Source: Lineus longissimus (lineage: Eukaryota > Nemertea > Pilidiophora > Heteronemertea > Lineidae). Taken from it: a stretch of DNA of 64,000 nt. The notes under the pieces are model-generated. The model was given only the letters and a program-made list of their open reading frames with translations. It was not told where the DNA came from and did not search any database. Each line of letters starts with the position of its first letter. Position 1 is the stretch's first letter. Below, piece by piece: positions 9,321 to 37,418 of this stretch. Position numbers and translations under genes: made by a program. Location of the stretch: contig NC_088318.1 of assembly GCF_910592395.1 (NCBI RefSeq), forward strand, positions 432,001-496,000, read 5' to 3'.

Positions 9321-9762
9321 CGGAGGAAAGAACATATGACAATGACCTATATGTCCATAACATCTCTGAAGCAAGGCCTATACTTCATGACTTTGCCAGG
9401 CCAATATATATGTACATCATGCACATGTACATTGTATCTTTTATCTAGGCTACAGAATTAAGTATGTCTGAAGTCTAGCTTGTGTCTGCATGCGATTTGA
9501 TATCATATTTACGGAATTCGGATGATTTGTCGTGAAACCGGTAGCGCATTTTAGAGACCCCACTGCGGTCTTAGGCTAACTAATCATCAAAAGAAACCAA
9601 GGTGATCATTGATAAAATTATTCCAACCACAGGTAGCATCGTTGTCGAACAAACCGTCCCGGGCAACACCAGAAAAACCCGACCAACGCCGTCCGATAGA
9701 GGCCGCTAGTGTAATCAGTCACGTGCCGCCATTGACGAATCAGCTCGCAGCAATCAATCACA

Positions 9763-11354
9763 ATGGCAGCCTCAACGAGACGCGGTATCCGTTTGAATTA
9801 CGCTTTGTTATCCGATATAAAATTGCCGAATTACAAGAGAGAAAAACGAGTAGTCCATAATAACACCAGTCAAGAGTTTTATGATATCTCAAGGATCATA
9901 ACAAGACGAAGTTCTAGCCAGGTAAGTGTCTTTTAACGGGACATTTTACGCATTAATTTTGCCGATTTTGAGAAGAACATTTTGTGTACTAACTGTGTAT
10001 GTATACGTACATGCATGTACATGGCCAATATGGCCGTTGTCAAAATGATCGAAAAAGATTTTTCAAATCCGACATTTTGGAGTGGTTTGATCATCCATAG
10101 GTTATCAAAATATTTGTATTCATAAAGTGTAGGTATTAATTCATAGTTTAGGATGACGAGTTTTGTGCAATCGGGAGTTTGGATGATAAAATTTTCATGT
10201 TTAATGTCCCTTTGAAATATTTCATTTTCGTTTTGCATGCATGCATGGTGGAGTAAAAAAGGCCCTGATTAAATCCAACATTTTGGAGAGTTTTAATCAT
10301 CGATCGATACTCAAAACCTTTTTATTTGTAAAGAAGAGATATCAATCCGTAGAATAGCACAATGAGTTTGGTGAATCTGGCAGTTTGAATGAAAATATGT
10401 TCATGTTTTTGTTGTCGTTCGCGAAAAGATTTTCGAACTTGTGATACAATACTACACAGCATGCTGTAAAAATCCCTTCCACTATTTTCTTATTGCCACT
10501 TTGCCATCCGTACAAAACCTGTATCTCACTGAAGCAAAGGAAGTGAATATTTCTATATTCTGATGTTAGTTTGGTCACTGACGCATGCAAAATACGATGA
10601 ATTGTGTTTTAGCAAGCATATTACATGTAATTCTGAAGTAAATGAGGCAGTGAATTATTTGTTTTTGTCGCACATTTCTTTATTTCCCTGAAGTCCTGTG
10701 TACATGTACCTGCTATCGGAGTGAAATGTGTTTGATTTAAGTATCCTTATCCCCCTACCAGTTGTTTTGTCTTTCTAAAGTATTCAAAAACAAACGTCAA
10801 TTTTGTATTTTCAGGGCGAAGAGTACCTTGTTGAATGGAAGGGCTACCCAATCGAAGATGCCTCGTGGGAACCCCAGACCAACCTTACTGATGACGTTCT
10901 TCTCTCATTTCTAAATCCGCCAGTAGAGCCGGCCAGGGTTCAGCAGACACGCTGCCAGATCACTGCTGCATTGCAGTCAATTTTACGTGGGAAAACGAAC
11001 CAGACAAAGCCAATGACAATCACCGTTTCCCTTGATGCGTTCCGGAATATTTCTTCAGATGCCAGGCCGGTCGAGTCGCGTATTCGGGGATATTTGGCTT
11101 ATTCCAAGGTGGATTTGGAAAGTTTCGGCCTTCTGCCTGGGTGGCGATACATTGTCGATTGTGAAGGAAGTGGTATGAGCCTTGTATTTCCTGTTCTTAT
11201 GAAAGTGTTTGTTTCCTATACCCCTAAAAACTATGGATTTAATCAGGACGGAGAGCTTCACGAACTAAAACGGTTGCCTGTGGAGAAACTTGCGATCAAG
11301 TGTTGCGTTGATCCGTTTTCAATTCATGATGCTGAAAATGACATGTCGGACTAA
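9763..11354 (+). CDS. Chromodomain protein, two exons
   Basis: Exon 1 is 9763-9921 (donor CAG|GTAAGT) and exon 2 is 10815-11354 (acceptor TATTTTCAG). The intron is phase 0 and the product is 232 aa. The start is the first ATG after an in-frame stop at 9733 and has a strong ACAATGG context. The intron splits the chromodomain: exon 1 ends FYDISRIITRRSSSQ and exon 2 opens GEEYLVEWKGYPIEDASWEP, so residues about 38-87 rebuild a whole domain. The methyl-lysine aromatic cage is complete (Y40, W61, Y64), which in HP1/Polycomb-type domains predicts binding of a methylated histone tail in the nucleus; the mark is unknown. The C-terminal 140 residues match nothing I recognise and hold no retroviral integrase. 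A possible ATTAAA poly(A) signal lies at 11412. The RAG1-like gene follows 456 bp downstream on the same strand. The splice model is strong; the function is inferred. Confidence 0.85.
9922..10814 (+). other. Intron of chromodomain gene with diverged tandem duplication
   Basis: This 893-bp GT-AG intron contains two diverged copies of a roughly 206-bp unit. The first begins near 10065 (AAATCCGACATTTTGGAG) and the second near 10271 (AAATCCAACATTTTGGAG). Both run into a shared TTCATGTTT segment at about 10194 and 10401. No coding potential was seen. Confidence 0.7.
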
Positions 11355-11810
11355 CAACATTGTATGGTTTTTAAATGAGGACTCCTGCCCCCTGCTCATC
11401 TGGTGTTGTGCATTAAAATGACATTTTTCATGTACTTGAATGAATGTGAATACTGTTTGCTACATTTGTACGCACTTGTTATTCTAATCTAAACTAGAGA
11501 TGCCAACCTAGCCATTTGACATTGTTGTACTAAATGTACATGTTTGTTTTCTAACATTTACATGCACACAAATCATCCAAAATAGTACTAGTTAGTAGTA
11601 AGTACACTGTAGTTTACAAGTGTACGTGTACAGCATATTCCTGTGTATTTCGGTTGTCTTATTTAATTATCACACTGGTGAAGTATAGTCCTCCATGATC
11701 AGTTAACTTTTCTGATCTTTGTCCTGCAGACTATTAATGATTTGTCCTCCAGATGTAAAGTTAGGTTGGCAACTCTTGTTTAACTTGATTTTGATGATGT
11801 CATTGACTAG
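11355..11810 (+). other. Spacer between chromodomain and RAG1-like genes, with MITE-like inverted repeat
   Basis: Arms of 15 bp, 14 of them matching, lie at 11496-11510 (AGAGATGCCAACCTA) and 11762-11776 (TAGGTTGGCAACTCT). They bracket about 280 bp, the layout of a small non-autonomous transposon. Inside it, a pyrimidine tract runs into GTCCTGCAG at 11721-11729, a good splice acceptor. Transcripts of the downstream gene could therefore have a spliced leader exon. The downstream reading frame has stops before its ATG, so any such exon would be 5' UTR. Confidence 0.55.
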
Positions 11811-14438
11811 ATGTTATGGTTCAGAATTCTTTTGATTGAAACATACAACTGTACACGTATCGTACACGTATCAGCCAAAATGCCTGCTCTTTCTAAACCA
11901 GCGTTGTCCCTTGTGACCAGTCCAATGTTCAAAGAAAATGACGCTTACATTTTTTCTGTTGAGATACCATACTCTGTCGCCATTTCTTGGTTTGATGAAG
12001 CACAATCGTCTGTCGCCAGGTATTTTTCACTTCTAGAGAGATTTCTTTGTGTGAACTATTGCATGAATTTGAAAGGTGACAATTTTCGTCTTGGTGAAAG
12101 GCTTCGTAGAGAATGCCCTGTTATTGCAAAAAAAGTTCGTAAAACTACTGGCAGAAAGCGTGTCTCTTTGTTAAGCAAACTGCTCAGATTGAACATTCGA
12201 CGGGACGACCTGACAACTTTCCCAGCCACGAAGAGAAAGTTGGAATTCGTACAAGAACAGTTGGTTGTGGCAGGAGAAAAAATTGGAGAGGTGGAAGATC
12301 AGTTGGCTGTAGCTCATGAGCAAATTGCGAATTTCGAACAAGAAATCTTGAAATTGCACTCGGAAATTTGTGAATTGAAGGTGCTTAATGACTCGCTGCA
12401 TCAAGATTTGAAACTTGAAAAAGACAATGCGGCAAATTTGCTTGAAACAAATCAAACGTTGCGGTCATATGTAGAAAAGCTGTGTGGCACTTCTCTCGAT
12501 ATCCAGGGTGGAAAACAAGGTGCATGTTCGAATTTCAGCAAATTTTCAAGGTCGTATCAACTGCGACGCTTGAAAGAGGTCAAGTCGAGAGCAGAGTGTG
12601 CTCTGTGGTTCCTCGAATTGTATGGTTTAAAGCTAGACTCGGTGAGTGTGAAAGATGATGCAGGAAACCAGCACAACATACAATCTGGTACGTTGAGTCA
12701 TTCTGACAGGAGCTCCCTTGAGCAGGTTTTGTACCTTTTAGATCGGTTTTATGTGTCAGATGCCTTTTATCACGAAATGACTTTGGTTGGTGATGGTCTT
12801 CCTAGGTCGTATTTGGTAAAGCAGCTGCGCAATGATATGAACAAACTTTGCCATGTACAAAAAACACCAGGTGTTGCTGAAGGGGCTGAGTTAGATATAG
12901 AGACTGAACTGGAGTTCACTATCAAGTGTCTTGTTGATCAGCATCCAGAACTGAAGGCGTCCGAGACAAAGCCATCTTTTCATGTGAAGTTTTGTGGTGA
13001 TGGCACTAATGTTTCGAGAAAAAATGGTATGTGTGTTATGAGTTTTTCGTTGTACTCTCCTGACAAACCTGAGACTGCTAATGGAGGTGCTCATCATGCC
13101 GTTGCAGTAGTAAAAGGCCACGAAAGTTATGAGATGTATGAAACGTCTTTTGCAAATGTCTGGGCAGCCATGAACCTGCTTCATGATCGTGGTTTTGTAA
13201 AAATAGATGGAGAGGATTACCCATTAAAAGTGTTCTTAGGGGCTGATTACAAGTTTCTTCAGATTGTCATGGGTATGTCTGGTGCTACCTCAAAGTATGC
13301 ATGTTTGTATTGTAAGGTTGAAAATGATATTCTTGCTCCTGATTCTCGCTGGGATACCTCGAAACCTATGGATTATTATGATACCCTTCCAAGGGCTCGT
13401 AGCATGGAAGAAGTTGAGTCTTGCTGTCTATCACAATCATTTAGTTGTGTGAATTTGCCTCTTGTAAAGCTACCATTTGATCAAATCATAGTTGATGAGT
13501 TGCATTTAATGCTCCGGATTACTGATAGAATGACGGAAAACCTCATTCAGGATTGTCTTGACTTAGATGAAAAGGAACATTTAGGTTGCATTGAAAAAAC
13601 CCTTGCAAATCCTGATTCACATTTGAATGCATTAATAAAGGCGGTTAGGTCCTGTGGTGTGAGTTTCAGGGTGTGGATGACCACCGATAAAAACGGCAAG
13701 AACGGTTTTGACTCCTCCAGTTTAGTTGGAGATGAAAAGAAAAAGTTGCTGAAGTTTTTGCCCCAAGCGTTACTCCAAAACAAGGTTCTTCACCCCCAAA
13801 CTGAGACAGTGGTGGCCCAAATTTGGCAAGATTTTGCAACATTTTATCAATTCATATCGGCTAATCACGATGATGAGGTTCTCGCTGAAACAGTTTTTTG
13901 TATGGCTCGTGACTGGATTCGCTTGTTCCTCTCCATTGGGAACAAAAGAAAAGGATACGAGAAGAAACGTGTGACCCCTTATATGCATATTGCTGTTTAC
14001 CATGTACCAAAATTGTGTGCCTCTCACAACGGTCTTAAGAAATTCAGTGCACAGGGAATGGAAAAACTAAATGATCATGTCAAGAGCATACATAAGCAGC
14101 ACTCGAACAAAATAGGGGCTTGTAGTGACATTGTAAAAACAACTTGGAGGCAGAATCAGCTTGCCCATAAAAAAAGGTCTCCAAATTCCTACTGTAAAAA
14201 ACAAGATGGCTATTGGCAGAAACAGATTTTCGAAAAGCGTCGTCGAGTTGAGCCGGTCGTTACTTGCACTGAAGCTCAGAAATCTGGTGCTGTCGATGTA
14301 AATTCGATGAGTGTGCAAGAAATGAAAGCTATGCTTAAAGAGCTCAAGGTATCCCATAAGATTCGTACGAATGTAGCAAAATTGCGATCTCTCCTAAAAG
14401 TAAACTTGCGTTTGAAGTCCGGCAGCACGAAAGCATGA
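11811..14438 (+). CDS. RAG1/Transib-like DDE recombinase with coiled coil and SAP-like tail
   Basis: Intact intronless frame of 875 aa. A second in-frame ATG at 11880 (MPALSK) has an A at -3 and may be the true start. Residues 141-224 form a long coiled coil. The core matches RAG1: D397 in FCGDGTNVSRKNG, D479 in FLGADYKFL, then C498 and C501 (YACLYC), H565 in VDELHLMLRI, H726 and H731 (YMHIAVYHVPK), and E751 in SAQGMEKLN. In mouse RAG1 the catalytic residues are D600, D708 and E962, and zinc is held by C727, C730, H937 and H942. The offsets D2-to-C (19), C-to-C (3), H-to-H (5) and H-to-E (20) are identical here. Residues about 832-868 look like a SAP DNA-binding fold. Similar proteins exist, as I recall, as uncharacterised entries in invertebrate genomes. 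All predicted catalytic residues are kept. No terminal inverted repeats were found, so active element and domesticated host gene both remain possible. Confidence 0.8.
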   Translation: MLWFRILLIETYNCTRIVHVSAKMPALSKPALSLVTSPMFKENDAYIFSVEIPYSVAISWFDEAQSSVARYFSLLERFLCVNYCMNLKGDNFRLGERLRRECPVIAKKVRKTTGRKRVSLLSKLLRLNIRRDDLTTFPATKRKLEFVQEQLVVAGEKIGEVEDQLAVAHEQIANFEQEILKLHSEICELKVLNDSLHQDLKLEKDNAANLLETNQTLRSYVEKLCGTSLDIQGGKQGACSNFSKFSRSYQLRRLKEVKSRAECALWFLELYGLKLDSVSVKDDAGNQHNIQSGTLSHSDRSSLEQVLYLLDRFYVSDAFYHEMTLVGDGLPRSYLVKQLRNDMNKLCHVQKTPGVAEGAELDIETELEFTIKCLVDQHPELKASETKPSFHVKFCGDGTNVSRKNGMCVMSFSLYSPDKPETANGGAHHAVAVVKGHESYEMYETSFANVWAAMNLLHDRGFVKIDGEDYPLKVFLGADYKFLQIVMGMSGATSKYACLYCKVENDILAPDSRWDTSKPMDYYDTLPRARSMEEVESCCLSQSFSCVNLPLVKLPFDQIIVDELHLMLRITDRMTENLIQDCLDLDEKEHLGCIEKTLANPDSHLNALIKAVRSCGVSFRVWMTTDKNGKNGFDSSSLVGDEKKKLLKFLPQALLQNKVLHPQTETVVAQIWQDFATFYQFISANHDDEVLAETVFCMARDWIRLFLSIGNKRKGYEKKRVTPYMHIAVYHVPKLCASHNGLKKFSAQGMEKLNDHVKSIHKQHSNKIGACSDIVKTTWRQNQLAHKKRSPNSYCKKQDGYWQKQIFEKRRRVEPVVTCTEAQKSGAVDVNSMSVQEMKAMLKELKVSHKIRTNVAKLRSLLKVNLRLKSGSTKA

Positions 14439-14888
14439 TATTCTGTATTGTTCGATTTTACGGTAAAGTTGGTGCTTACCAAGTGAATTACATCTACTTG
14501 TACATTTCTAGTTGATATTGTAACTCTACATTGTAGACATAATGTTCAAAATATGACTTGCTGGTGCTGGGCATTACATGTACTAATGATTTCATCAAAT
14601 GTTATCATTAATAGCCCCTTTAATCAAAAATTTAAGTGTGTGCTCTCAAGTCTTGATGTGCGTCTTGCCCTAAGTCAGTTGTGATTCATCTTAGATGAAA
14701 GTCTCTAGTCTAATGCTTAATTTTGGTAAAACTTAAATTCGACTCAGTGAGCTAGCTTTGTCTCACTTAAATTTCTTGTATGGTTGTAATGTGATACATG
14801 TATGTGTGGATTTTTTATTTAAAAATCAAAATCCTGTGATTGGTATGTACCACACTATGTTGAATCTCCTGTCCACGGACAAAAATGA

Positions 14889-15077
14889 TACAGTCCAAGT
14901 CACATAATGTCATCCCTCTCGCGTCACATCAAGCGATGCATGACATGCGTTTGAGGTCTGTGCCGAATGATGTGGCAGTGACACACATCTCTCGATTTAA
15001 CACCGTTTACGCGCGACCTTCGCATAAGTGACACCAATGATACGATTTTTGTGATGTCATTTGTGACTCGGACTGTA
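14889..15077. mobile_element. Tc1/mariner-like MITE, 189 bp
   Basis: The left end begins TACAGTCCAAGTCACA and the right end, read in reverse complement, TACAGTCCGAGTCACA. Similarity continues for about 26 bp, including a shared TGTCAT/TGACAT block. Ends of the form TACAGT fit Tc1/mariner-type elements with TA target duplications. There is no coding capacity. It sits inside the likely 3' UTR of the RAG1-like gene. Confidence 0.65.
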
Positions 15078-15286
15078 CCGTATATTTATTTACTGAGATG
15101 TCGATGTTTGTAGTGTGGCCTCTCCTGCTGCCAAGATACTTCTTCATTCCTTATACATTGTACCCGGTATTATGATTAACATGTTGATTTTTTTTTCACT
15201 GCTGGACAGTGGCAATGGTGCCTTTCTATTGTTTATAAAAGTGCTTCCTTGTAATTTCTGAAAATATATTTTATGTACTTTGTAAT

Positions 15287-15292
15287 AATAAA
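15287..15292 (+). terminator. Poly(A) signal AATAAA
   Basis: AATAAA in an AT-rich context about 850 bp downstream of the RAG1-like stop codon, followed by T-rich sequence. It is the first canonical signal after that gene, so it is the likely 3' end of its transcript. Confidence 0.5.
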
Positions 15293-15705
15293 GGCATTTT
15301 ATTCGACAACTTATTTTTCTGTAAAATTAATCTGTTTGTTTCTTGAGCTATCCGGGGTATAGCCTCTCTGGCGGTTGCTCTGTGCAGGCTGCACTGTTTA
15401 CATTACAAGCATGATGTCTTGTACATAGGTGTACCAACCTTGGTTTGATAATTTCATGGAAACTGAAGTGGAGCTGCATACATGCAATGGGATTTGCAGA
15501 AAGACCTTCTGAGGACACCTCGCACAGACACCTGGGATGATCGATCCAATATGAGAGCATGTACTTCTCTTAATATTGTTCCTGGGAATGAATCTCTCCT
15601 GAAGGACACCGCCTTATATTCAGGGGAAAGTATTGCAGAGTTGTCCGCACTCTCCCCCCAAACCTGAAGGAGACATGTCACATCCACATACCTCCCACAA
15701 TAACA

Positions 15706-16330
15706 TCTATCAGATGAATGAATGTCGTATTGCGACCCCTCCCTATGATTATGAAGGATATGTCCGTCTGATCTGATCCCTAGGTTGTCCTCATAGCAGG
15801 ACCGTCTTTTTCCAAAGTGCACTCCAAAGGGAGGTCTGCTCAGTGCAGCACCCCTCCTCCTAAAGGACAATGTTTGACAGATTAGGCGAGTCCATGTTGA
15901 CCTGATTTGAGAGTTGTGCAACGTATCTCCCAAATAGGACATCCTTTGGATGAATGAATTCATATCGCGACACTCGTAGGATCATAAAGGATGTCTTGTC
16001 CCTAGGTTGTCCTTACTTGAACGCGAAAGACGTCTGTTCAACACGTACTCAGGAGGACATCCTCCTGTTGGGACAACCTTCCATTTGACGGATTAGGCTG
16101 GTCCATGTTGTCCTTATTTGAGAGTTGTGCAACGTATCTCCCAAATAGGACATCCTTTGGATGAATGAATTCATATCGCGTCACTCGTAGGATCATAAAG
16201 GATGTCTTGTCCCTAGGTTGTCCTTACTTGAAAGTGTTCAACACGTACCAGAAGAATGACATTGTCCTCCTGTAGGGACATCCTTCCCCTCCCTGAAGGA
16301 CAATATTGTCCTTCCTAAGTAAGACGTCCT
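15706..16330 (+). repeat. Tandem repeat with 211-bp period
   Basis: A block beginning GATTAGGC at 15880 recurs at 16091 with near identity over about 140 bases (shared words include GTGCAACGTATCTCCCAAAT and GTCCCTAGGTTGTCC). An older, diverged unit precedes it near 15711-15790. GGACA/TGTCC words occur throughout. The 169-codon minus frame over 15454-15963 falls mostly in the repeat and is not treated as a gene. Confidence 0.8.
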
Positions 16331-16700
16331 TTATGGCTATACAGACAAGCGTAGCTTGGGGTGTATTCAGAGAATTACCTTCTGTGTGAGGACACCTTTG
16401 AGACAGGACAGCATTGTTTGGTCCCTAGGTCTAAATTGATATCGTATTATACCGCGAAGACACAATGTACCTCAAAAGTACGGCTCGCAGTATGTTTTGG
16501 CTAAACGATCGTACGTCTTGTGTTCGAGGACACAGGTGATCATAATCAGGACACCTCTTTATTTAGGACAGCGTCCCTGATGTCCTTGTTTGTATGCTCC
16601 CACCTGATATGACTGTTCACCAGAGGATCTAACAAATTTGCAATCAAATTACTGGAATGCCTACATCAATTTCAAACCTGGATGCCAACAAGACCAACCT
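16331..16700. other. Non-coding flank with degenerate GGACA-rich sequence
   Basis: Scattered GGACA/TGTCC words suggest further decayed units of the preceding tandem repeat. There is no coding signal. Confidence 0.4.
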
Positions 16701-16747
16701 CCACCCCACCCCACCCCCACCCCACCCCCACCCCACCCCCACCCCCA
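16701..16747 (+). repeat. CCCCA-type microsatellite
   Basis: A run of alternating CCCCA and CCCCCA units, purely low complexity. Confidence 0.9.
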
Positions 16748-17569
16748 AGGTAGGAGAGGCCAAGACCACAGTACACCCCCCACAAAATGCCCAACTTTTT
16801 TACATTAGACAATTAGATATAGGAAAGCTACCATCAGTAATAAACTTTGGGTGCAGGGAAACTGGACTCATGCAGTCATGATTAGCATGATCATCAAGTG
16901 AAAAATGAATTTTCAAACTTCATTTAAAATCTAGAGTGAAAAATTTAAATCTCAGTAGTATCAGAATGATGGTGTTTCACATTAGCATGAAACAAGCACG
17001 ATTTAAAACTAGGTATATTGCATAGATCAACCCCCCAAGCTCCCTAGTGACCCCCTCGCAATGACCAATTCAATTTTTTGCTGTCACATCATTAAAACCT
17101 CCAATTTCGGCATGCAAGTGGACAAAGAAAAAAATGTTCCAAAACACCCGAAGCAGTGTTATTATGACTCTAGATGGTATTGCCCTCTCGCGGATCTATC
17201 GGCAACTAAAATATTATCGCTAGAAATGCCAGTTTTTGAGCCGTAAAAACGCCTCAAAGGCTTATTTTCCTGATTTTCCCTGTTTGAACTTCATCAATGC
17301 ATGCAAAGCGGCGGTACAAAGGTGGACAAAGGATTTTTTTGACTAAATTCACTGAAATTTCGCACAGTATTAGCTAGACATTAGAGGAAACCAATGGGCT
17401 ATCGGCAAAGTGCGTAATGCTCCCCACCGCCTGATTAACTCTGCTTTTGGAGATTGCCCTAAGCTAAGGGCACTACTGCGTTGATCAGCCGAGATGGTAA
17501 TTAGTGCGCATGCGCAAGTTCGAGGTCGGGGATTTCTGGTATTGGTATACCACAATCTCCACTCAACCC

Positions 17570-34062: not shown

Positions 34063-35571
34063 TTAGAAATGGCCGTAAAACTGCGTTTGCTTTCGATCAC
34101 GGCAGGAGCGTCGCAGAGGTTGAGGGTCAGTGGACGCGGATATGCATGGTTCATTTTGGGTCGAAGGCTCGGCTATTTCCAGAGGAATCTCGGGAACGGG
34201 CGGTGGCGGTGGCGTCTGTATTGGCTCTGGGAGTTCGGATAAGGCACGTTCCGTCGCAGGTACGCACACGGTCACGTCGGAGTCGTCGTCGTCATCGTCA
34301 TCTGTCGAGTACTTATAGTTTTTAGTGTCTAGAACTACCTGGCTTGGTACCCTATAACACTCAGTTTTCTTGACCCGGTAAGATGCATTTCGCAGTTGAG
34401 AACCAACAAGCTTTCTGATATTGCACCAATTGTTGTCTAGTGACGTCAAGATGTAACGATCACGAGATGCGGACTTGTTACGATCGGCGTAGAGGTACAC
34501 GATGTCGCCGACTTCCCAATCCTGTATTGAACCAGTGTCGGAGGTGCGCGTGTTCGGAGCTTTTGACTTTTCGCTATGTGGGTGATTGTCTTTGCGCTTA
34601 CTGTGTTGATTTCGGATCAAAGACTCGTCAGACATATTCAGCTGTCTGTTCGTGAACTGGTCACGTTGTAGCATCATTTCACGTGCGGAGAGGCCTCTTG
34701 AGCGGACGCGAGCATTTAGGGTTGCAGAGGCAATGGCTAGGGTCTTCGCGGAGATGCACCCACCTGTGGGGTCAGTTTTTAGCAACTCCAACTCTAATTC
34801 CTGGACAGCTTTTTCGGCTACCGGGTTTTTGTTGACGTTCTTTACTCTACCAACTTCGATCGCGATTTTGAGTTCTGATAGCTGTTTGTCCCTGACTAAA
34901 GCTTTGAAGCCTGGCGCCGGGTCAACGCGAATTACAGCGTTAGGACCATCTAAGGGTCTAATATCAACACATAGGCGGATGAGACCATCGCGGAGTGATT
35001 CATGGCGCTCATCTTCGATAAGGGTTGACGTAGTGTATGACGTCACACACTCTCTGAGGACAAGGATGAACTGCCTGTTGCGCCTGATCACATCTGCAGC
35101 GAATGATACACCGACGGTGTCTGGCGGATCACAAGTACTTTGTTCCGCAAACAAATGTGGGGTTTTCAAAAGCGATGCGCATTTGTGACAAGACTGAGCG
35201 ACCTTTTCAATGGACTTGTCGAGATCCAAGGTGAAGAAGTAGCGGTGGGTAACCGACTTCAGCTGATTGGTTGACGGATGGTCAAGCCTAACATGGAGAG
35301 CTGTCAGTAAGCCATCTAGTACCTGACGGGGAACGACTATTCGTTCACGCGTTGGGATGAGTGGTTCGTTCTGGGGTACAACCAAAAGACCGTCTTTTGC
35401 AATCGTCGCAGCGTTGAGGTAACGTTTCACGTCCTTACTGTTAGTTACCTTTTTGGAAGGGCGTGTACCTTGCTTCAGGTGCGCATGTGTGCGTCTTAAA
35501 TCTGCGCACTCAGACTGGATCGATAGCCATGTCGACCTGCTGGTAAACGGGAGCTTGTGAATGCCGGACAC
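34063..35571 (-). CDS. Retrotransposon integrase
   Basis: A 502-residue frame read from a GTG; the frame is also open a little upstream, as expected for the 3' part of a pol gene. The N-terminal zinc finger has H93, H98, C128 and C131 (HVRLDH...CHKC). The catalytic core has D160 (FAADV), D217 (RVDPAPGFK) and E253 (NPVAEKA), with 35 residues between D217 and E253, the classical DD35E spacing. The C-terminal part has an SH3-like basic stretch (GDIVYLYADRNKSASRDRY) and ends in an acidic and proline-rich tail. There is no chromodomain. The frame is intact and would be predicted active for strand transfer. It is the only pol function left in this copy. A 178-codon plus-strand frame over 34652-35188 is its antisense shadow. 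Confidence 0.9.
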   Translation of the reverse strand: MSGIHKLPFTSRSTWLSIQSECADLRRTHAHLKQGTRPSKKVTNSKDVKRYLNAATIAKDGLLVVPQNEPLIPTRERIVVPRQVLDGLLTALHVRLDHPSTNQLKSVTHRYFFTLDLDKSIEKVAQSCHKCASLLKTPHLFAEQSTCDPPDTVGVSFAADVIRRNRQFILVLRECVTSYTTSTLIEDERHESLRDGLIRLCVDIRPLDGPNAVIRVDPAPGFKALVRDKQLSELKIAIEVGRVKNVNKNPVAEKAVQELELELLKTDPTGGCISAKTLAIASATLNARVRSRGLSAREMMLQRDQFTNRQLNMSDESLIRNQHSKRKDNHPHSEKSKAPNTRTSDTGSIQDWEVGDIVYLYADRNKSASRDRYILTSLDNNWCNIRKLVGSQLRNASYRVKKTECYRVPSQVVLDTKNYKYSTDDDDDDDSDVTVCVPATERALSELPEPIQTPPPPPVPEIPLEIAEPSTQNEPCISASTDPQPLRRSCRDRKQTQFYGHF

Positions 35572-35585
35572 AATGTCGGATACGT

Positions 35586-37418
35586 TTACAGGTACGCGTC
35601 AAGACTCACTGTAGCGGAGTGTTTTGAAGAGTCAGACTTAGCCCGTATCAGGGGTGTCTTTGTGCATCGCGTCGGCGCAGGATCTGTTTCCGGCACGAAG
35701 ACGGGGCGAATCTGGCATATATGTTCGTTGCGTTTTAGGACAACGGGTTCGCTAGTAGTGTTAGGGATGCGGATTTTTCCTGCGATACTTGGTATCACGG
35801 CTGGACTAGGCCAAGTTTCTGTTGCGAGTCTGGCGTCTACCTTGGGTTCCAGAGCGAATTCCGAATCGGGGACCGGGGTGTCTATTTCAAGGAAGTCACC
35901 GGGCCAAATCGTGACAGATTGGTCTGGAGCGCGGATTACGCATGAGCGAATTGCATGACGACCAGATGGTTCGGGTAGTGAGCCGTAGATGTACTTGGAG
36001 CCGTCGCCAAGCCGGACCTCGCGTTTTGCAGGTCGGACGGAAACGTCATTATGTTCCATGAACGGGGTACCTGCAAGGATATCTACATCAAGGTTTTCAA
36101 TGACAAGACCTTCAAAAAATAATGGTTGATCGTCTCTGGTGAATGTCAGCCTAGTTTCCCCAATGACTTTCAAAGGGGATGACCCGTCAGCTTGGTGGGC
36201 AGACTGTGAGCTTTTACGGATGTCTACGCCAAGTCTTTTAGAAGCTGGCAAGCTGATGAGGTTCCCTGTTGCGCCAGTATCAATAGTGATGCGGGCGCCA
36301 TGGTGTTCATAGAAACAGTTTATGTAGGGTGACTGACGCACCTGGATTCTTTGGGCTGATGGGTTAAAGTCACAGCTACTCGGACCTTGAATGTCACTAC
36401 TGCAATCAAAACTGGACACCTGAGGTTCCTGAGTAGTTGTGTCATAATCGGCATTGTCATTGTCAATGATACTTAGTATCTGTCTTGCTCTAACCATGTA
36501 GCGGCGATCCTTTTCGGGGAGAAACTTGCACTCGCTTAGGAAGTGTTCCTGATCACTGCGACCCGCCTGTTTGCAAAGAGGACAAGACTTATCCCCTCTG
36601 CCGTCGAACTTTCTGCCTGATCTCCCTTGAGGGCGAAACGAATTGGTTTTAGGAACGGATTGGTGTGATGCTGCGGCACGCATCACTTTAGCACTTTCGT
36701 TCGTACGTATTTCGTCCAGTAGAGAATCGAGGGCTTGGGAGATCTCCGGTTTTAACGATGATAGGGTCCTCGATCTTAGCTCGGTCCCGTAACGTTGTTT
36801 AACGAGTTTGGGTAACTCCGGGTTGATGAGTCTGAGCCACGTAAAAACTACCATATTCTCGAGAGAAGGTGAGAGCTCTTCATCTTCGGTCATGACAGAC
36901 CCGTGGTGAGATAAGCCGTTCGCTTTTAGTAGATTGTCCTCGACGAAGGCCACGAGCCGTTGGTATAGGTCCTCTGGTCTTTCGTCAGGCCCTAGTTGAA
37001 AGTCGGCCAGATCAAGGAAATGGCCACCCGTTGTCTGGAATCCAAAGTGTAATCGGATAGTTTGCCAAATGAGATCGGTGGATGTGGAGTTCTTCACTAT
37101 AGTATTCCGGGAAATAATTGGACAGAAGTTCGCTATTTGACCAAACATTAGTTCTAACATGGACACCTTTTGTTGGGCAGTCCACCTGGATCCTTCAGGT
37201 ACGGTTGCTGGGTCATCCTTGAACCCGCGAACCGGTTCAGTCTTGGTTTTCTTGCTCCAAGTCATACCATCCACCAGAAATTGGGTAAAGTTTGCATCAA
37301 GGGATAGGGTGTACACTAAGTTCTGTTTCCAGTTCTCGAACGAACTTATCGTCTCGTTTTTGGTCAAGCACCACTGTTTCGGCGCGCGTTGCATGATGGA
37401 ATTGGAAATTCGGATCAC
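35586..37418 (-). CDS. Gag-protease polyprotein of the LTR element
   Basis: 610 residues, intact. Residues 1-250 are the capsid-like Gag region. A zinc knuckle-like motif follows: C279, C282, H292, C297 (CPLCKQAG...EHFLSEC), with a longer loop than the usual CCHC knuckle. The aspartic protease active site is D380-T-G in ITIDTGATGNLISL, and a second conserved block is DILAGTPFM. The frame closes at 35586 with no reverse transcriptase. The start is the first ATG after the primer site, about 130 bp from the 5' LTR. Gag would package element RNA and the protease would cut the polyprotein. I recall closely similar Gag proteins from molluscs and other marine invertebrates, but this needs a search. 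Confidence 0.9.
   Translation of the reverse strand: MIRISNSIMQRAPKQWCLTKNETISSFENWKQNLVYTLSLDANFTQFLVDGMTWSKKTKTEPVRGFKDDPATVPEGSRWTAQQKVSMLELMFGQIANFCPIISRNTIVKNSTSTDLIWQTIRLHFGFQTTGGHFLDLADFQLGPDERPEDLYQRLVAFVEDNLLKANGLSHHGSVMTEDEELSPSLENMVVFTWLRLINPELPKLVKQRYGTELRSRTLSSLKPEISQALDSLLDEIRTNESAKVMRAAASHQSVPKTNSFRPQGRSGRKFDGRGDKSCPLCKQAGRSDQEHFLSECKFLPEKDRRYMVRARQILSIIDNDNADYDTTTQEPQVSSFDCSSDIQGPSSCDFNPSAQRIQVRQSPYINCFYEHHGARITIDTGATGNLISLPASKRLGVDIRKSSQSAHQADGSSPLKVIGETRLTFTRDDQPLFFEGLVIENLDVDILAGTPFMEHNDVSVRPAKREVRLGDGSKYIYGSLPEPSGRHAIRSCVIRAPDQSVTIWPGDFLEIDTPVPDSEFALEPKVDARLATETWPSPAVIPSIAGKIRIPNTTSEPVVLKRNEHICQIRPVFVPETDPAPTRCTKTPLIRAKSDSSKHSATVSLDAYL

Follow-up and report, generated by a model that had tools for sequence, protein, structure and literature searches.

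A predicted RAG1-related transposase in a two-gene DNA transposon of the nemertean Lineus longissimus, with a single-base target-site duplication

A stretch of 64,000 nucleotides from Lineus longissimus (NC_088318.1, positions 432,001 to 496,000; the window) contains an open reading frame of 875 codons at 11811-14438 on the + strand. The frame is indeed present and its product, judged from the amino acid sequence, is a real divergent relative of RAG1, from a lineage near RAG/Transib. With a probability of about 0.86, we identify it as the Asp-Asp-Glu (DDE) transposase, ORF2, of a cut-and-paste DNA transposon with two genes, a member of the CACTA/Mirage/Chapaev/Transib-RAG1 group lying near the RAG1-like (RAG1L) branch. 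The original prediction had described an uncharacterised protein with RAG1-like geometry; the transposon around it, the second gene and an unusual target-site duplication had been missed. RAG1, which assembles vertebrate antibody genes, descends from a transposase, and the steps between RAG1/Transib and other cut-and-paste transposases are poorly known.

Results

Catalytic and zinc-site residues of the ORF2 protein

The start of ORF2 is probably at 11880, since the starts of relatives align there (MPALSKP/MPAFSKP). The features of the gene are as follows.

11880..14438, + strand: ORF2, probable DDE transposase, encoding 852 aa if translated from the likely start (the frame is open from 11811)
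12249..12482, + strand: coiled-coil region (about residues 147-224), with weak Pfam, NCBIfam and PDB matches to coiled-coil proteins only
12999..13001, + strand: codon of D397, predicted first catalytic Asp (profile alignments, family alignment)
13245..13247, + strand: codon of D479, predicted second catalytic Asp (alignments; in the profile search of PDB sequences it falls only within a weak second stretch)
13302..13313, + strand: codons C498 to C501, ZnC2-like pair (profile search of PDB sequences, profile-profile alignment)
13494..13505, + strand: codons D562-E-L-H565, a DxxH motif aligned with DATH of RAG1L (profile alignments)
13986..14003, + strand: codons H726 to H731, ZnH2-like pair (profile alignments)
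14061..14063, + strand: codon of E751, predicted catalytic Glu (profile alignments)
14301..14411, + strand: SAP-like tail, approximate (from sequence)

D397, D479, E751, the C498/C501 and H726/H731 pairs and H565 all stand where the original prediction had placed them, and all are conserved in relatives. Counted over the filled cells of a 39-row family alignment, D397 and D479 are kept in 32/33 rows each (gaps in 6 rows each), C498 and C501 in 34/34 each (gaps in 5 each), H565 in 32/34 (5 gaps), H726 in 24/24 (15 gaps), H731 in 27/28 (11 gaps) and E751 in 22/25 (14 gaps). The conserved C498-x2-C501 and H726-x4-H731 pairs sit between D479 and E751.

Spacing is conserved as well. The distances from the second Asp to the first Cys (D2-C, 19), between the cysteines (3), between the histidines (5) and from the second His to the Glu (H-E, 20) are kept in all 20 rows that have the eight columns filled. 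The first three recur in every one of the 16 comparable rows of an 18-row RAG1L set, so that the claim of offsets identical to those of RAG1 stands for D2-C, C-C and H-H. For H-E it agrees with mouse RAG1 by the residue numbers given in the original prediction (of which H795 appears in PMC7204232), and does not extend to invertebrate RAG1L, where the distance is 23 in 15 rows and 20 in one. The C-H distance also differs (68 in the window family versus mostly 59-64 in RAG1L), as does that between the two aspartates (about 110 versus about 80).

Profile comparison with RAG1L

Used alone against Pfam, NCBIfam and PDB sequences, the window protein gave weak matches only, mostly to coiled-coil proteins. 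It matched neither RING nor SAP nor PF02992 (CACTA/EnSpm) in the Pfam search, the filters of which remove most matches above 0.1; a SAP match of 0.0017, below the curated cut-off, was obtained with the relative P0008. The family profile was more informative. When profile A3 was run against 177,635 PDB sequences, amphioxus RAG1L came first (E=1.9e-4), with zebrafish RAG1 at 8.3e-4 and mouse RAG1 at about 0.01; the other rows among the best 60 of 83 match only positions up to 202, the coiled-coil part. A smaller alignment, A2, returned 18 PDB rows, all of them RAG1/RAG1L or coiled coils.

Direct comparison of the family with 18 RAG1L proteins by hhalign gave a probability of 95.1, an E-value of 3.1e-8 and a score of 78.7, as against 28.3 at most for 60 column-shuffled controls and 20.2 for the reversed profile. 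In one colinear alignment, D397, D479, C498/C501, D562xxH565, H726/H731 and E751 fall on their RAG1L counterparts, which bears out the residue assignments on the level of whole profiles. The match is strongest between a point just before C498 and the C-terminus, and D397 is placed by fuller alignment paths. In an unrooted tree of 20 of the 39 family rows, 18 RAG1L and 2 CACTA sequences, family and RAG1L are separate, each with 100/99 support; the CACTA branches are long.

Neither viral contigs nor prokaryote genomes contained a relative detectable with the family profile, and a RAG1L scan, made in prokaryote genomes only, was likewise negative; no Transib turned up in the prokaryote scans with either. 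Searching the host genome for the RAG1 family brought up RAG1L-type loci and no Transib sequences. One of these loci, L041 (C7:11996913-12001592), is a decayed true RAG-like transposon with a RAG1L frame on the + strand, interrupted by stops (PF12940, E=4.6e-58), and convergent - strand frames read by eye as kelch and PHD-like RAG2L. C16:11365392-11368190 (L042-L046) holds the fragments of a second RAG1L remnant.

A subclade with a RAG1L-like C-terminal knuckle

The domains of RAG1, H795 and the C-terminal CTT* motif are described in PMC7204232. The Cx2Cx3GHx4C tail corresponding to CTT* is absent from the window protein. Four of the 39 family rows (P0005, L020, L023 and L026), on a tree branch apart from that of the window protein, carry a C-terminal Cx2Cx4Hx4C 47-50 residues past the catalytic Glu, and P0005 and L020 alone among them fit the exact G-H form. 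The RAG1L knuckle is present in 17/18 rows, 51 residues after the Glu in the 12 that could be measured by script. Against RAG1L, the four knuckle rows reach a probability of 96.4 (E 1.3e-9) and the remaining 35 rows 86.9 (4.2e-6). Convergence is possible since such knuckles are common, although position and adjacent sequence agree between subclade and RAG1L. The notion that the remainder of the protein is unlike RAG1 thus applies to the window branch, with its coiled coil and SAP-like tail, and not to the family as a whole.

Structure and copies of the element

ORF2 is contained in an element bounded by terminal inverted repeats (TIRs).

9663..9663, no strand: left copy of the 1-bp target-site duplication (G)
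9664..17544, + strand: whole transposon, 7881 bp (7.9-kb), terminal repeat to terminal repeat; the C9 copy begins and ends at the same bases in unrelated flanks
9664..9684, + strand: left TIR, CAACACCAGAAAAACCCGACC
9763..9921, + strand: ORF1 exon 1, 53 codons, with a GTAAGT donor at its end; encodes the beginning of the chromodomain (splice predicted from sequence)
10815..11354, + strand: ORF1 exon 2, preceded by ...TTTTCAG; encodes the remainder of the chromodomain, followed by a conserved C-terminal domain
15873..16287, no strand: direct repeats at a spacing of 211 bp in the 3' half, a part with no recognised gene
17524..17544, - strand: right TIR, inward CAATACCAGAAATCCCCGACC, 18/21 bases as in the left TIR
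17545..17545, no strand: right copy of the 1-bp target-site duplication (G)

The termini are CA..TG and the TIRs slightly asymmetric. The corresponding repeat reads CATTACCAGCAATYCCCAACYTT in the L035 element, whose protein is 48% identical, and CATTACCAACTTTCGCT in L031; most other inverted-repeat pairs listed were taken as chance. The host assembly searched (391 Mb, 30 contigs) has at least 51 matches to the transposase, made up of fragments from two near-identical copies (89-95%) and of more distant matches at 24-64%. The C9 copy is 98.5-98.8% identical over window 9664-17544 and lacks 11275-13998; the C6 copy has about 2.2 kb left. The relatives L031 and L032 are 99.96% identical over 5.5 kb and have unrelated flanks. 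With up to one mismatch allowed, 84 TIR sites of the window type and 80 of the L035 type were found, and none with the backward control of either; the exact L031-type pattern gave 8 sites (control 0). Many sites pair by spacing into elements of about 1.05-1.3 kb, which amounts to dozens of short copies, most of them not read through. Among the short copies sampled, hand-picked from the TIR site lists (20 pairs of the window family and 19 of the L035 family), one end of each type is present in 39/39.

ORF1 lies upstream of ORF2 on the same strand. Its predicted exons join without a frame shift into a protein of 232 aa that matches Pfam Chromo (3.8e-11, residues 40-80). The L031 and L035 elements have ORF1 in the same two-exon arrangement, with an identity of 27.9% over 208 aa (E=7e-28) for L031 and of 40% over 179 aa for L035. 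In L023, a deep relative, a frame upstream shows a weak match of the MSL3-chromo-like type (4e-4, below the curated threshold). Beyond ORF2, in 14439-17544, we recognised no further gene; of three frames of at least 75 residues there, the longest was scanned against Pfam and gave no match. With that one right-half frame scanned, no kelch/PHD RAG2L partner was recognised in the element either. A literature search for a chromodomain with RAG1 and a DNA transposon turned up only a survey of fungal co-option (PMC10799480).

Position relative to RAG1L, Transib and CACTA

RAG1 and CACTA are both placed in the RNase H-like superfamily (PMC3985635). A C(2)C / H(3-4)H site has been reported across the CACTA-Mirage-Chapaev-Transib (CMCT) group, whose members end in CA..TG in most cases and make duplications of 2-5 bp (PMC12730594). 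The zinc geometry alone, being group-wide, does not therefore indicate RAG1. The window element has the C(2)C/H(4)H pairs and the CA..TG termini of this group; its duplication falls outside the 2-5 bp range, measuring 1 bp in two families, with a third showing a 1-bp match in 1/4. The proposal of a divergent RAG/Transib branch fares well for the RAG1L-like core, with its profile matches and colinear residues, and less well in that the geometry is shared by the group and the family also matches CACTA. Our sequence comparison covered RAG1L and CACTA, and the family may lie either inside RAG/Transib or beside it.

The family scores 54-73 against RAG1L thinned to three random sequences (8 draws) and 45-50 against five CACTA rows of the same genome, while RAG1L against CACTA scores about 24, which is not significant. 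With single sequences the scores are 42-55 for RAG1L (8 of 18 tried) and 20-36 for CACTA (3 tried).

What the element shares with RAGL/ProtoRAG is considerable: the colinear DDE core, CxxC, H(4)H, the DxxH motif with the equivalent of H795, the D2-C, C-C and H-H offsets, a CCHC knuckle (in one subclade), asymmetric ends (PMC9435367) and a second gene with a histone-reader-type domain. It differs in the lack of a RING match, in the coiled coil and SAP-like tail of the window branch, in an H-E distance of 20 instead of 23, in having a chromodomain ORF1 and no recognised kelch/PHD RAG2L, in its CAWYACC ends and in a 1-bp rather than 5-bp duplication. RAGL elements are known in cnidarians and in a pelagophyte, the latter with a 5-bp duplication, asymmetric ends and RAG2L upstream of RAG1L in the same direction (PMC9435367). 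Transib, by published description, has the same types of catalytic and zinc residues (PMC12730594, PMC9435367); it is described as a single-gene element (PMC7204232), versus two genes here, and the sequence comparison with it is limited to the failure of profile A2 to find HzTransib.

The family could be a deep branch inside Transib/RAG1 that has lost the 5-bp stagger, the CAC heptamer and RAG2. The three offsets equal to those of RAG1L would fit such an origin, as would the similar position of the knuckle (47-50 versus 51 residues from the Glu). We nevertheless consider it rather unlikely, given that the family forms one clade apart from RAG1L (100/99), that RING and a kelch/PHD gene went unrecognised, that TIR and duplication are different, and that profile A2 misses HzTransib at E<=10 where the RAG1L profile reaches it at 2e-9.

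Alternatively, the element might be an ordinary CACTA/EnSpm or Chapaev-type transposon, its RAG1-like look being due to features of the whole group. CACTA/EnSpm (PF02992) does share the CA..TG ends, a C(2)C followed by paired His, a D-x-x-H motif and a detectable profile match, and C(2)C, H(3-4)H and CA..TG are group-wide (PMC12730594). Nonetheless, judged by the comparison with CACTA, this reading is unlikely. Thinned RAG1L outscores CACTA in 8/8 draws; the three CACTA rows covering the region read H(3)H rather than H(4)H; PF02992 does not match the window protein; the duplication is 1 bp and not 2-3 bp (3 bp is described for EnSpm; PMC12730594); and one subclade has the RAG1L-like knuckle. 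CACTA-type transposase frames of the same genome (L047, L048 and L054; PF02992, with L054 under the cut-off) likewise have H(3)H where this family has H(4)H.

A single-base target-site duplication

Copies of the window family have the same base on the left and right flanks in 17/20 cases, where base counts predict 35% (P 7e-6); the window, C9 and C6 copies show this match too (3/3). In the L035 family the 1-bp match is found in 19/19 copies (expected 33%, P 7e-10), as well as in L035 itself, with a 2-bp match in 1/19 and none of 3-6 bp. The C9 copy is inserted in an open frame, and removal of the element plus exactly 1 bp leaves 94 codons open from an upstream ATG to the end of the stretch read; stops appear when none or two bases are removed. 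An initial reading of no duplication, based on six sites at which 2-10 bp were tested and nothing consistent was seen, was dropped once more copies gave the 1-bp match. A 5-bp duplication, as in RAG1/RAG1L elements and in Transib, was seen in 0/19 copies of the L035 family and in at most 1/20 of the window family at any end shift tried.

That the match is a coincidence, arising from insertion without duplication into T-rich targets, is very improbable. T is the commonest flanking base (11/20 left and 10/20 right in the window family, 9/19 in the L035 family) and the third family matches in 1/4; still, the 19/19 result and the C9 frame argue otherwise, and window-family sites with a left base other than T match in 7/9 (scored by eye, binomial computed). 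We found no report of a 1-bp duplication in open-licence literature, which is no proof that none is published. Spy transposons (PHIS), whose transposase belongs to a different superfamily, likewise have a very short or no target duplication; to our knowledge they make none at all.

At one locus (L115, C2:10457900-10460300, near position 1176), two L035-type short elements, one of which matches only partly, stand head to tail with TG|CA abutting and no base between. A signal-joint-like product was considered for this junction and set aside, as a 1-bp-duplicating insertion beside an end would explain it too.

Finally, the reading as a domesticated host gene rather than the gene of a recently moved element is rejected: the long frame of the window copy is intact, as this would have it, but the element has terminal repeats and near-identical copies elsewhere, of which the one on C9 lacks 11275-13998, besides dozens of short copies.

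Discussion

Several observations weigh against our identification of ORF2 as a transposase near the RAG1L branch. Pfam RAG1 (PF12940) has no match to the window protein at E<=10, with filters that remove most matches above 0.1, and L026 alone among the relatives scores on it (0.13, under the cut-off). The CACTA comparison set consists of five rows, some of them fragments, and ranking RAG1L as closer than CACTA is tentative for this reason. As to the duplication, two of the 20 window-family copies share one flank and are not independent; three of the 20 mismatch, one abutting another copy and two unexplained; and the L031-type TIR family (C1, C12, C16, C20), unlike the two larger ones, matches in just 1/4 copies, which is also unexplained.

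If the identification is right, ORF2 presumably binds one end of each of the two slightly different inverted-repeat types. It would cut at the CA..TG ends through the site formed by D397, D479 and E751, presumably held together by a C2H2 site that may bind zinc, and might employ hairpin chemistry. Both ends would then be joined to the target with a single-base stagger, so that one base is duplicated. The ORF1 protein may act in transposition by tethering the complex to modified histone tails, the presumed ligand of its chromodomain. In RAG elements, chromatin reading is the role of RAG2.

We tentatively suggest, at somewhat less than even odds, that these elements represent an undescribed animal transposon superfamily bridging RAG1/Transib and CACTA, with a 1-bp stagger and a RAG1-type transposase paired from its origin with a histone-reading partner (chromodomain or chromo-like). 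Were this so, a chromatin-reader cofactor such as RAG2 would not be a one-off acquisition of the RAG lineage. Independently of this proposal, the element adds a second example in which a RAG1-like transposase is accompanied by a gene of the chromatin-reader type. Because it matches both RAG1L and CACTA, which do not detectably match each other here, the family can serve as an anchor in aligning the whole group and building its trees. The one-base duplication, shorter than the group's stated 2-5 bp (PMC12730594), is relevant to the mechanism by which the strand-transfer complex sets the stagger.

Elsewhere in the window, positions 34063-37418 on the - strand hold two adjacent long open frames, of 502 and 610 aa, in a locally G+C-richer segment (46-50%).

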